The position numbers and the translations under genes were made by a program. This document shows positions 18,930 through 22,391 of a DNA stretch of 64,000 bases, piece after piece. How positions within the stretch are numbered: position 1 is the stretch's first letter; every line of letters starts with the position of its first letter. The notes below the pieces were generated by a model. That model was not told the origin of the DNA and did no database searches. It saw nothing but the letters and a program-made list of their open reading frames with translations. Origin of the DNA: Phycisphaera sp. Its GTDB lineage: Bacteria; Planctomycetota; Phycisphaerae; Phycisphaerales; Phycisphaeraceae. The stretch lies in the NCBI GenBank assembly GCA_016125215.1, contig WGMF01000016.1, forward strand, positions 62,001-126,000, read 5' to 3'.

Positions 18930-19988
18930 GTGCGCATCGCCGTCGACGTCATGGGGGGTGACCACGCCCCGGACGCGATCCTGACCGGCAGCCTCGATGC
19001 CATCGGGCTGCTCTCGGAGAGCGACCGGCTCGTCCTCATAGGCGACGGCGCTGTCATCCGTGAAGAACTCGAAGAGCGCGGTCTGACCCAAGACCCGCGC
19101 ATCGAGGTCGAAGCCACTACGCAGGTCATCGGCATGGACGAGTCTCCCGTCCTGGCCATCCGCAACAAGCCCGACAGTTCCATCGTCCGCATGGGCGAGC
19201 TCGGCGGCTCACGCAAGAGCGGCGAGCGTCACTGTGAGGTCGTCATCAGCGCGGGCAACACCGGCGCCTGTGTCGCCGCGGCCCAGATGGCCATGCGTCG
19301 ACTCCCCGGGGTGAACAGGCCCGGCATCGCCGTCACCATCCCGACGTTCTACGGCCCGGTCATTATCTGCGACGTCGGGGCCAATCCCGAACCCAAGCCG
19401 CACCACCTGCACCAATACGGCCACATGGCCGGCGTGTATGCGAGCAAGATCATCGGCATCGAAAAGCCCCGCATCGCGCTGCTCAACATCGGCTCGGAAG
19501 AAGCCAAGGGCAGCCCGCTGGTCAAAGAGACCGCCAAGCAGATGCGCAAAGACCCGACGATCAACTACGTCGGCTTCGTCGAGGGACGCGACCTGTTCGA
19601 TGGCAAGGCCGATGTGGTCGTCACCGAGGGCTTCACAGGCAACGTCGTGCTCAAACTTGCCGAGGGTCTGGCCGCCGGTCTGTTCAAGACCATCGCACAC
19701 GAAATCTTCGAGATCGACCCCGAACTGGCCATGAAGTTTGAGCCGGTCGTCAAGAGCATCTACGCCAAGCACGACTACCACGAATACGGCGGGGCGCCGC
19801 TGCTCGGGGCCAACGGCATCTGCGTGATCTGCCACGGTTCGAGTGAGGCCCGCACCATCAAGGCCGCCATCCGCAACGCCATCAAGTATGTCAAGCTCGG
19901 TGTGAACGACGGCATCGTGACGGCTTTGGCCAACGCGCCGGCCCCCGAAGAGCCTGTCGCTTCCAAGACCGGCGGAGACGCGGCATGA
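18930..19988 (+). CDS. plsX: Phosphate acyltransferase PlsX
   Basis: Converts acyl-ACP and phosphate to acyl-phosphate, the donor for PlsY in phospholipid synthesis; a peripheral membrane enzyme. 352 residues starting at a GTG (18930) preceded by AAGGAA. Family motifs are RIAVDVMGGDHAPDA at the N-terminus, SAGNTGACVAAAQM, the ICDVGANPEPKPHHLHQYGHM segment, EGRDLFDGKADVVVTEGFTGNV and GGAPLLGANGICVICHG. The length is typical. The stop overlaps fabH by ATGA, so the two are translationally coupled. Confidence 0.96.
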   Translation: MRIAVDVMGGDHAPDAILTGSLDAIGLLSESDRLVLIGDGAVIREELEERGLTQDPRIEVEATTQVIGMDESPVLAIRNKPDSSIVRMGELGGSRKSGERHCEVVISAGNTGACVAAAQMAMRRLPGVNRPGIAVTIPTFYGPVIICDVGANPEPKPHHLHQYGHMAGVYASKIIGIEKPRIALLNIGSEEAKGSPLVKETAKQMRKDPTINYVGFVEGRDLFDGKADVVVTEGFTGNVVLKLAEGLAAGLFKTIAHEIFEIDPELAMKFEPVVKSIYAKHDYHEYGGAPLLGANGICVICHGSSEARTIKAAIRNAIKYVKLGVNDGIVTALANAPAPEEPVASKTGGDAA

Positions 19989-21019
19989 GCAATCGCACGA
20001 TCACACCGCCGACCGTCGGCCAAGCCGACGGCAAAGCTTTTGGCGTGGCCATACTCGGCTCGGGCATGTGCCTGCCGCCCAATACGCTGACCAATCAGGA
20101 ATTGGCCAAGCGTGTCGAGACCAACGACGAGTGGATCACCCAACGCACCGGCATCAAGTCACGCTACATCGCCGACAAAGATTCCTCCGTACGCGACCTT
20201 GCGGTCACGGCTGCGAAGAACGCGCTGGCCGACGCCAAGCTCCAGCCGACCGATATTGATTTTCTGATCCTGGCCACGCTCACGCCCGAGATGGTCTGCC
20301 CCTCGACGGCGGCCCGTGTGGTGCTCGAACTCGGCGCGGTGCCGGCTGGGGCGGTGGATATTTCCGCGGCCTGCAGCGGGTTTGTCTATGGCTTGAACAT
20401 GGCCTCGGCCCTGGTACGCAGCGGGTTCTACAGGCGAATCATGGTCGTGGGTGCGGAGAAGCTTTCGGACATCACCGACTGGAGCGACCGGCGCACGTGC
20501 ATCCTCTTCGGTGACGGTGCGGGCGCCGCGGTCATCGGTCGCGTCGAAGATGCCACACGGGGTTGCCTCTTCCAGCACATGCACTCGGACGCCACGATGT
20601 GGGGCGAGCTTTACGTCCCACGTGGTGAAAAGGACCTGCCCGAGAAACACCCCGAGTTTTCGGGCAAGTTCAATACGTTGCAGATGAACGGACGCGAGGT
20701 CTACAAGTTCGCCGTCTCGACGCTCCAGAGCAACATCGACCGCACACTCGGCGCCTGTGGCCTCAAGCCCTCGGACCTGGCCATGATCGTCTCCCACCAG
20801 TCCAACGGCCGCATCCTCGAATCGGCGAGAGAAAAGCTCGGTCTGCCTGAGGACAAGATCTACATCAACATCGACCGCTTCGGCAACACGTCCGCCGCAA
20901 GCGTGGCCATCTGCCTGCACGAACTCCGCGCCGCGGGCCGCATTAAACAAAACGACCTCGTCCTCTTCACCGCCATGGGCGGGGGGATGACATGGACGAG
21001 CAGCCTTTGGAGGATGTGA
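19985..21019 (+). CDS. fabH: Beta-ketoacyl-ACP synthase III
   Basis: Starts fatty-acid chains by condensing acetyl-CoA with malonyl-ACP. 344 residues, slightly longer than usual because of an N-terminal extension of about 20 residues before FGVAILGSGMCLPP. The catalytic cysteine is in DISAACSGF (Cys130). The His is in IVSHQSNGRI (usually PHQAN, here SHQSN) and the Asn in FGNTSAAS. Substrate-loop residues ETNDEWITQRTGI are conserved. The start overlaps the plsX stop. A four-helix-bundle cassette separates it from fabD, which in most genomes follows directly. Confidence 0.96.
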   Translation: MSNRTITPPTVGQADGKAFGVAILGSGMCLPPNTLTNQELAKRVETNDEWITQRTGIKSRYIADKDSSVRDLAVTAAKNALADAKLQPTDIDFLILATLTPEMVCPSTAARVVLELGAVPAGAVDISAACSGFVYGLNMASALVRSGFYRRIMVVGAEKLSDITDWSDRRTCILFGDGAGAAVIGRVEDATRGCLFQHMHSDATMWGELYVPRGEKDLPEKHPEFSGKFNTLQMNGREVYKFAVSTLQSNIDRTLGACGLKPSDLAMIVSHQSNGRILESAREKLGLPEDKIYINIDRFGNTSAASVAICLHELRAAGRIKQNDLVLFTAMGGGMTWTSSLWRM

Positions 21020-21024
21020 AAACC

Positions 21025-21056
21025 ATTGATGATTGATGAATGATGATTGATAATCT
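21025..21056. repeat. Left inverted repeat of the four-helix-bundle cassette
   Basis: 32 bp arm made of ATTGATG-type heptamers, starting 5 bp after the fabH stop. It matches the reverse complement of 21431-21462 at 29 of 32 positions. An ATG inside it (21040) could extend the cassette gene upstream. Confidence 0.75.
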
Positions 21057-21069
21057 CAGAGGGTTGATA

Positions 21070-21423
21070 GTGAACCGTAACGAAATGCAATCCCGGATTG
21101 AAGATTTAGCGGTGCGCGTGGCTAAAGTTGCCGAGGCGCTACCAAAGCAGGTAGCCGGAAAAGTTTGGGGACAACAACTCATACGGGCGGGGTCTTCAAT
21201 CGGCGCAAACTATCACGAAGCTGTACACGCCTCGTCAAAGAAACATTTCATAACCACATTGGAGATCGCGCAGCGCGAATGCAACGAAACGATTTATTGG
21301 CTCCGTCTGATCGGTCGTGCTGAACTTTTACCCCTCAAGAGACTTCAGCCCCTTCTCGACGAGTGCAACGAGATTTACTCGATCCTCACCGCATCCATCC
21401 GAACCGCCAAAAGCCGAAAATGA
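21070..21423 (+). CDS. Four-helix-bundle protein (23S rRNA intervening-sequence family)
   Basis: About 117 residues from GTG 21070, which has AGAGGG six bases upstream; an ATG at 21040 inside the left repeat would add ten residues. The sequence (RIEDLAVRVAKVAEALPK ... GQQLIRAGSSIGANYHEA ... FITTLEIAQRECNETIYWLRL) shows the hallmarks of the small S23/IVP four-helix-bundle family, found inside 23S rRNA intervening sequences and scattered in many genomes; the molecular function is unknown. The stop overlaps the fabD start (ATGA), so fabD translation is coupled to it. It lies inside inverted repeats in the middle of a conserved fatty-acid operon, which suggests an acquired cassette. Confidence 0.85.
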   Translation: MNRNEMQSRIEDLAVRVAKVAEALPKQVAGKVWGQQLIRAGSSIGANYHEAVHASSKKHFITTLEIAQRECNETIYWLRLIGRAELLPLKRLQPLLDECNEIYSILTASIRTAKSRK

Positions 21424-22391
21424 CCCCAACAGATCATCAATCATCTATCATCAATCATCAATCTCCGATCCTTCTCTGTCCCGGGCAGGGCGCGCAACAT
21501 ATCGGTATGGGTAAAGGCTGGTACGAGAAGTCATCGGTCTCGAAGCAAGTCTTCGACGCGGCCAATGCGCTGCTGGGCTTCTCCCTGACCGACGCCTGTT
21601 TCGCCGGTCCGGAGGAGACCATCAACCGCACCGACGTGGCGCAGCCGGCACTCTATGTCGCGTCGGTGGCGTCTTACAAGGCGCTGCAGGCTGAGGGCAA
21701 GATCGACAGGATCCGCGCTGCGGCGGGGCTTTCGCTGGGCGAGTTCACCGCACTGCATTTAGCCGGTGCGTTTGATTTCGAGACCGGATTGCAACTCGTG
21801 CGATTACGTGGGCAAGCGATGCAGGACGCGGCCGAGATGAGCAGGTCCGGCATGGTCGCACTCGTCGGGGCGGATGAAGCCCAGGCCGACGCGCTGTGTG
21901 AAGAGGCCCTCAACGACCCCGAAAACCGCGGCGACGAGGTGCTGGTCCCCGCCAATTTCAACTGCCCCGGGCAGGTCGTCATAAGCGGCAGCGAGAAGGC
22001 CTGCGAACGTGCGATGTCGGTGGCCGACAAGATGGGCCTGCGTGCGACGATGCTGGCCGTGGCAGGTGCGTTCCACTCGCCGCTCATGCAGCCCGCTGCA
22101 GACCGCCTGCGCAAAGCACTCGACGAAGCGGACTTTTCGTTGCCCACCTTGCCGGTGCTGTCCAACGTCACGGGTCAGCCGCACGAGAGCGATGTCGCCT
22201 CGATCAAAGACCGCCTCGTCGAACAGCTCACCAGCCCGGTGCGTTGGGAGCAGGACGTCCGTTGGTTGCTAGCCAACACGCCGCAACTCGCGCGCTTTAT
22301 CGAATTGGCCCCCGGCAAGGTGTTGTCCGGTCTGATGCGTCGTATCGATAAACCCACCAAGGTCGAGAACCACGCGGAGCCATCGCCATGA
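21420..22391 (+). CDS. fabD: Malonyl-CoA:ACP transacylase
   Basis: Loads malonyl groups onto ACP for fatty-acid elongation. 323 residues from ATG 21420. The first 16 or so (MTPTDHQSSIINHQSP) are encoded by the right inverted repeat of the preceding cassette; the conserved protein begins at ILLCPGQGAQHIGMGK. The active-site serine is in AAGLSLGEFTAL (the GxSxGE motif), with QLVRLRGQAMQ supplying the carboxylate-binding Arg and GAFHSPLM the catalytic His. The C-terminal LPVLSNVTGQPH and ELAPGKVLSGLMRRI are typical. The start overlaps the cassette gene stop, and the fabD stop overlaps the next small membrane gene (ATGA both times). Confidence 0.94.
   Translation: MTPTDHQSSIINHQSPILLCPGQGAQHIGMGKGWYEKSSVSKQVFDAANALLGFSLTDACFAGPEETINRTDVAQPALYVASVASYKALQAEGKIDRIRAAAGLSLGEFTALHLAGAFDFETGLQLVRLRGQAMQDAAEMSRSGMVALVGADEAQADALCEEALNDPENRGDEVLVPANFNCPGQVVISGSEKACERAMSVADKMGLRATMLAVAGAFHSPLMQPAADRLRKALDEADFSLPTLPVLSNVTGQPHESDVASIKDRLVEQLTSPVRWEQDVRWLLANTPQLARFIELAPGKVLSGLMRRIDKPTKVENHAEPSP
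21431..21462. repeat. Right inverted repeat of the cassette, within the fabD coding start
   Basis: Reverse-complement copy (29/32) of 21025-21056, built from ATCATCA-type heptamers. It is translated as DHQSSIINHQS-like residues of the FabD N-terminus, so the arm has become coding sequence. Confidence 0.75.

Follow-up and report, generated by a model that had tools for sequence, protein, structure and literature searches.

The closest described relatives of the element analysed here are the intervening sequences (IVS) that lie inside 23S rRNA genes. According to the accessible part of the published description (PMC4990558), the 23S IVS of Coxiella burnetii is 428 nt long, has a 28-bp terminal stem and an S23p ORF, and carries beside the ORF a tandem array of GACAGAT heptamers that differs in copy number from strain to strain. 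The rRNA insertions of CPR bacteria are described, in the available portion of PMC11270868, as having 23S_rRNA_IVP ORFs in both 16S and 23S. Genes of this name were also found in cas loci, e.g. between cmr3 and cmr2 in Pleurocapsa, and were there seen as CRISPR-linked (PMC3936711, accessible text). TAACTGA heptamer repeats were reported from Beggiatoaceae, Cyanobacteria and Bacteroidetes, and translational regulation was proposed for them in the part of PMC4679880 available to us; the words S23, intervening and four helix are absent from the main text of that paper, as is S23 from the main text of PMC4853749. A further point of comparison is the REPIN-RAYT system (cf. PMC3116915). In the open PMC literature we found no description of S23 genes that lie in operons between inverted heptamer arms.

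The window, i.e. the whole stretch of 64,000 nucleotides of Phycisphaera sp. DNA that was analysed, contains such an arrangement between fabH and fabD (Table 1). An earlier note on this DNA had described there a gene of the S23/IVP family, unaccompanied by a transposase, between inverted 32-nt arms built from ATTGATG heptamers, and the present analysis bore this out: the inserted protein is S23/IVP, and the arms, 32 nt each, match at 29 of 32 positions (91% complementary) with 374 nt between them. The borders had also been read correctly. The fabH stop codon lies at 21017-21019, 5 bp ahead of the left arm, the TGA of the cassette (21421-21423) overlaps the ATG of fabD (21420-21422) as ATGA, and the right arm is translated as the N-terminus of FabD, with no other in-frame ATG, GTG or TTG between the fabD ATG and the conserved LLCPGQGAQ. 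Of the two candidate starts of the cassette ORF, ATG 21040 is inside the left arm and GTG 21070 has AGAGGG, a Shine-Dalgarno-like sequence, 6 nt upstream; judged from these letters, the ORF may start at the GTG. With the Coxiella IVS, as far as the available text of PMC4990558 goes, the cassette shares the S23/IVP ORF, the inverted terminal repeats (32 nt here, a 28-bp stem there) and the tandem heptamers, which speaks for the link to IVS suggested in the note. It differs from it in lying in a protein operon, between fabH and fabD, and not inside a 23S rRNA gene, in having a coding right arm, and in having relatives without the gene scattered through the genome. Six exact rRNA motifs matched none of the loci examined.

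Table 1. Parts of the fabH-cassette-fabD locus, with positions in the window.
Feature	Position	Strand	Remarks
fabH, upstream operon gene	19985..21019	+	NF006829 395 bits, TIGR00747 353 bits
Left arm, tandem heptamers of ATTGATG type	21025..21056	+	5 nt past the fabH stop
S23/IVP four-helix-bundle gene	21040..21423	+	TIGR02436/PF05635; start 21040 or 21070
Right arm, repeating the left arm in inverted orientation	21431..21462	-	on the + strand, FabD N-terminal codons
fabD	21420..22391	+	TIGR00128 278 bits; first codons in and around the right arm of the cassette

By sequence and predicted fold the cassette protein (127 aa) is a member of the S23/IVP four-helix-bundle family. It matches PF05635 (3.9e-20; 72.5 bits, curated cut-off 33.8) and TIGR02436 (87.6 bits, cut-off 24), and its AlphaFold2 model (pLDDT 92.9, alignment of 17 rows) has four long helices (13-33, 42-62, 67-93 and 99-125), with 2rld and 2gsc as the top PDB matches (TM 0.79/0.89 for 2rld_B). 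The fold is also like that of Avd of diversity-generating retroelements (4dwl, 8ub7, 8ub8; TM-score 0.69-0.73 by query length), and a family link with Avd is stated in the accessible part of PMC10053308. The Foldseek E-values for Avd (0.06-0.16, identity 13-14%) were, however, no better than those for unrelated bundles such as 1x90, and a diversity-generating retroelement has a reverse transcriptase, whereas the genome to which the window belongs (G000, assembly 98% complete) has no RVT_1 match. A reverse transcriptase as the driver in G000 was discarded on this ground; the related genomes G009, G014, G023 and G040 have one or two RVT_1 matches. PF05635 has only three matches in the 4.04 Mb of G000.

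The fab cassette is no isolated case: a related gene with inverted arms is present at the fab site in five other genera, and the cassette is one case of an architecture general among PF05635 loci. As the arm score we used the best ungapped inverted match between the 250-nt flanks of a gene, and a locus was called armed at a score of at least 14; the cassette in the window scores 23. The main set of 147 PF05635 loci was drawn from 68 genomes that belong to the order of G000, which itself supplied three loci (the contig-edge matches G042:C148, G149:C6, G087:C3 and G042:C99 and unlisted PF05635 matches were left out), and 105 of the 147 were armed. The same score was reached by 23 of 1470 mismatched left/right flank pairs between genomes, by 10 of 316 flank pairs from different loci of one genome, and by none of 781 random positions in 61 loci; on account of the 10/316, the idea that all cassettes of a genome draw on one shared repeat was rejected. 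A multi-phylum set, which consisted of the best 80 of 588 confirmed loci (more exist) and was therefore biased toward high scorers, had 53 of 80 armed, including 10/10 in Acidobacteria and 14/31 in Bacteroidota, against 13 of 800 mismatched pairs. An S23-type gene with heptamer arms close to the threshold (score 13, TAGGGAATAGCCAATAGGG) was seen on a contig of a Methanophagales archaeon (L230).

The arms consist of tandem 7- or 8-mers, whose unit differs between cassettes and matches within one cassette. In the 105 arms the best self-match lag was 7 or 14 in 69, 8 in 30, 15 in three, 6 in two and 9 in one, and the mean self-match at lag 7 was 0.59, compared with 0.24 for sequence taken 400 nt upstream. 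G exceeds C in the left arm of 93 of the 105 armed loci, and C exceeds G in seven. The idea that 7/8-mer arms serve to place stop codons in every frame was considered and rejected, as there was no clear signal in comparison with unit-shuffled arms: stops in all three frames were present in 21% of left arms (15% after shuffling) and 15% of right arms (7.5%), and 41% of left arms had no stop at all (33%).

The cassettes typically lie in sense inside operons. The strands of their neighbours were assigned by an amino-acid composition score devised here and validated on fab and atp examples only (strand calls from the longest open frame picked antisense frames and were set aside); 97 of the 105 armed loci could be scored, the other eight being without two scored neighbours. 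The cassette was in sense between two co-directional genes in 82 of the 97, opposed to both in five and in a mixed context in ten, and among the multi-phylum armed loci (53 among the best 80 of 588) it was in sense between two genes in 25 of 33 scored. Since eight of the ten scored loci among the 30 with arm scores below 11 were also in sense between two genes, this placement characterises the gene family as a whole, armed or not. The left arm begins at a median distance of 1 nt from the upstream stop (n=82, with the middle half between -6 and +6), the end of the right arm and the first in-frame start of the downstream gene are a median of 6 nt apart (n=81), and the downstream frame is already open within the right arm in 69 of 82. 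From sequence resemblance we take the junctions hosting cassettes to include groES/groEL, atpH/atpA and pdhA/pdhB, and gltB/gltD, ispF and hemB to be among the neighbours.

FabD was located in 60 of 61 genomes, and the fabH-fabD comparison covered 30 loci, our own and 29 of relatives. Uninterrupted junctions, which the earlier note had proposed to look for, are frequent: 24 of the 29 relative loci are gene-less, in three (L074, L076, L081) a related gene, 41-51% identical, separates fabH from fabD, and in two (L085, L091) the stretch examined contained no FabH. The PF05635 family search added two more filled fab sites (L186, L192). Inverted arms are present at all six filled sites, which belong to six genera of two families. 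The arm units of these sites mostly differ (ATTGATG in the window, then TTTCGGA, TTTGTGA/TTTCTGA, ATTGCAA and ATTTATG); the GATGATT-like unit of L192 is close to ATTGATG. In L076 the right arm is likewise FabD coding sequence, with a GTGA overlap. In one genus (g9) the site is filled in G041 and empty in G008 and G035: in this one same-genus comparison, the cassette occupies the place of the 48-49-nt native spacer seen in the latter two, and the end of the right arm supplies the ATG of FabD. As the native spacer is replaced, a target-site duplication is not demonstrable. Among the 24 gene-less junctions, four (L071, L077, L092, L093) have an inverted pair with a score of at least 16, 19 score at most 8, and L088 was too short for scoring. 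The pairs of L092 and L093 (fabH-fabD of G030 and G036) and of L077 consist either of units of the CGAAGG or CACAGAGG type or of a G+C-rich stem that is not tandem, and the CACAGAGG-type unit also adjoins arrays in G000. A weak four-helix tblastn match at L073 (E=0.009) falls inside fabD and was dismissed as noise.

A tree of the 147 proteins, built on 105 columns, left many forks unresolved, and its bootstrap had not settled; in it the protein of the window belongs to a clade with 18 members (100/100; 14 armed), which unites all six fab-site copies with twelve copies at other places. The fab-site copy of G059 groups with a copy of G063 located between other genes (100/98), and at the fab junction of G063 itself there is an inverted pair that encloses no gene. 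The groES/groEL copies are spread over three parts of the tree. Several other sites form clades, which indicates that insertions are often old, and this clustering of same-site cassettes suggests that cassettes may largely be inherited vertically, with losses. Arms are nearly absent from two clades (0/10 and 1/12); the members of the first (L181, L182, L183, L184, L188, L189, L191, L193, L195, L200) share their neighbours in part, and such unarmed PF05635 clades are possibly settled host genes.

One point calls for correction: the arm sequence is not confined to the cassette, and the heptamer array is dispersed through its own genome. A 15-mer of the arm, with at most one mismatch, gave 177 overlapping matches in the 4.04 Mb, and the reversed-pattern control gave none. 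The dispersed copies often stand in the context CC-array-ATCTCAGA, which is also that of the left arm, and the way the left arm runs on into CAGAGGG is similar to that of dispersed copies running on into CTCAGA. Arms thus do occur singly without an S23-type gene, an outcome that in part agrees with what the note had listed as counting against it; against this objection, unit counts are higher in genomes with a cassette of the same unit. Five units were counted in 16 genomes (20-mers, at most two mismatches; overlapping matches, cassette arms included). In their home genomes the counts were 139 (G023), 119 (G000), 61 (G014), 35 (G040) and 25 (G009), each with a reversed control of 0; elsewhere the reversed-pattern controls reached 18 in G059, 7 in G040 and 3 in G011. 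Across the 80 genome-unit cells the median was 24 in the 13 for which a PF05635 locus carries the unit (on one side or the other, with at most three mismatches, among the PF05635 loci examined) and 0 in the other 67 (P=2e-7). The 13 cells include the five home cells that supplied the units; the other eight had 0, 4, 7, 11, 17, 18, 24 and 104. High counts without a cognate locus among those examined were found in G063 (152), G009 (75), G038 (37), G026 (34) and G095 (19), genomes whose PF05635 loci were sampled in part.

Some of the dispersed arrays form pairs. In G040, G014 and G009, with 18, 21 and 22 arrays listed, all 18 pairs of opposed neighbouring arrays at most 600 nt apart face inward, and one further pair has the same direction; two of the 18, with arms 379 and 408 nt apart, are gene cassettes, and 16 enclose 21-148 nt. 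Likewise, nine of 20 dispersed loci (15 from G040, five picked from G023) have an inverted pair of the unit, with a score of at least 13 and no room for a gene. Such pairs are few in G000 (L206, L207 and, by coordinates, one at C50), where none of 20 non-cassette arrays inspected had an opposed partner of the ATTGATG unit within the stretches examined. The dispersal of the unit, partly as gene-less inward pairs, in the five home genomes is a REPIN-like pattern. In the REPIN-RAYT system gene-less inverted pairs are reportedly dispersed in a genome together with a gene flanked by the same repeats. The likeness consists in dispersed inward-facing gene-less pairs in genomes with a cognate gene (few in G000); the differences are that the protein here is an S23 four-helix bundle and not a Y1 transposase, that the arms are tandem 7/8-mers, and that cassettes with different units coexist in one genome. 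By analogy, the cassette system may work like a REPIN-RAYT pair minus the transposase. The arrays also resemble the TAACTGA repeats, which in the available part of PMC4679880 are dispersed tandem heptamers, mostly intergenic and sometimes within ORFs.

The explanation that we prefer, and to which we give a probability of about 0.7, is that the insert belongs to a widespread family of selfish, transposase-less S23/IVP cassettes with matched inverted arms of 7/8-mers, located in sense at operon junctions, accompanied by REPIN-like repeats and akin to IVS; it would probably be a mobile, IVS-type cassette family outside rRNA. A cassette would be about 450-500 nt long, with the S23/IVP gene between inverted arms of tandem 7- or 8-mers, and would be expressed probably by operon read-through and translational coupling at the stop/start junctions. 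We infer that cassettes move, and that the S23-like protein is translated from the operon mRNA and works together with its own arms; this action would spread cassettes as well as gene-less derivatives. Host genes would tolerate a cassette at their stop/start junctions and could even take an arm into their coding region; arms, both with the gene and by themselves, would recur through the same genome, as REPINs do with a RAYT gene, and the intervening sequences of 23S rRNA look like the rRNA-resident form of the cassette. A more far-reaching version, which we put forward tentatively and at somewhat less than even odds, is that these cassettes constitute a class of transposase-less elements, in which the S23 protein and its own arms spread by themselves across phyla, insert at operon stop/start junctions, shed REPIN-like satellites and gave rise to the 23S IVS. 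If this is true, many genes annotated as 'four helix bundle protein' are the cargo of such an element.

The matching of the arms was compared at 14 shared sites with 47 armed cassettes and 72 between-genome pairs, the groups sharing at least one neighbour (by clustering or reading) and not always both. The left and right arms of the same cassette had a median score of 22 (the cassettes having been selected at 14 or above); for left arms compared between genomes at one site the median was 7, with 8 of 72 pairs reaching at least 14, and 12 of 72 pairs of right arms reached 14. Within a cassette, complementarity might be kept by selection on an RNA stem if the insert were an mRNA intervening sequence, whose arms pair over the S23 gene and which RNase III excises or processes. 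The arms in the window do pair in predicted RNA (z -2.76, 0/100 shuffles as low), as the earlier note had supposed, and the sense placement within operons would suit such processing. The arm mismatches of the 105 cassettes, however, do not prefer G-U over A-C (54 vs 63 at a penalty of -2, 90 vs 106 at -1; the comparison, made on the sense strand, presumes roughly strand-symmetric mutation). As there is no G-U excess, RNA pairing seems not to be what keeps the arms matched, and on this point the note's suggestion that the arms matter through RNA pairing is not supported in the form given there. We think an mRNA intervening sequence unlikely; the mismatch pattern argues for arms kept matched at the DNA level, by copying or conversion.

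Selfish cassettes also have to be weighed against a mover encoded elsewhere. A Y1 (HUH) transposase could move the arrays as REP/RAYT-like satellites, with the S23 gene as a passenger; Y1_Tnp matches were found in all five genomes searched (seven in G000), and the gene-less inverted pairs resemble REPINs. This appears improbable to us, as the five tested units were present at none of 8 Y1_Tnp loci (8 of 19 matches listed, one of them located too close to the end of its contig for the arm test) and arms accompany the S23 gene across phyla. No better are the prospects of an old and useful fab-operon regulator, inherited vertically and lost many times, with the arms as binding sites or attenuator: its presence at the fab site in six genera of two families, all in the clade of 18, would be expected, but the same clade is also found at unrelated operon junctions (resembling gltB-gltD, ispF and hemB neighbours), and 24 relative junctions lack the gene. 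That a host gene simply happened to sit between two copies of a dispersed intergenic repeat is very improbable. The repeat is common in G000, and an inverted pair about 960 bp apart encloses another gene, yet with 105 of 147 family members armed and 0 of 781 random positions, chance capture is unlikely as a general account. As a separate observation, the Y1_Tnp loci L315, L316, L320 and L321 of related genomes are flanked by inverted sequences of another kind (scores 16-31, by eye not heptamer arrays), and perhaps are separate REP/RAYT-like systems in the same genomes.

The selfish-cassette explanation would give a common 'unknown' protein family a function class, would suggest an origin for the intervening sequences of 23S rRNA, and would account for the dispersed heptamer repeats of many genomes. 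Because each cassette can be matched to its own repeat, the old question of IVS origin becomes testable. It also carries a warning, that S23 genes within cas or other operons may be passengers and not parts of the system. The 23S_rRNA_IVP genes of cas loci, which in the accessible text of PMC3936711 belong to the same family and lie between operon genes, could be armed cassettes of the same sort.

Some features of the dispersed arrays in G000 deserve separate mention. Several ATTGATG arrays, for example those at L017, L025, L028, L030 and L031, are followed by CTCAGA or GTCAGA and then by a hairpin like CCGGTCGCAAGCGACCGGGCTAAAT. Upstream of them there is often a second array, of GGATGAT or TGATGTC, which makes a composite intergenic repeat. 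At L018 (G000:C7, array 1501-1537) and L020 (G000:C8, array 1500-1530) the ATTGATG arrays are in frame inside long open frames, so that the repeats are protein-coding inside conserved enzymes; these we take to be GuaA for L018, which the frame resembles (HRFIEVFKQTADHLQSSIINHQSSISFLAQGTLYPDVIESG), and perhaps Mfd for L020. Contigs C1, C5, C7, C12, C22 and C36 of the same genome end about 115-210 nt from an ATTGATG array, and because of this closeness it is possible that the assembly breaks in larger repeats joined to the arrays.
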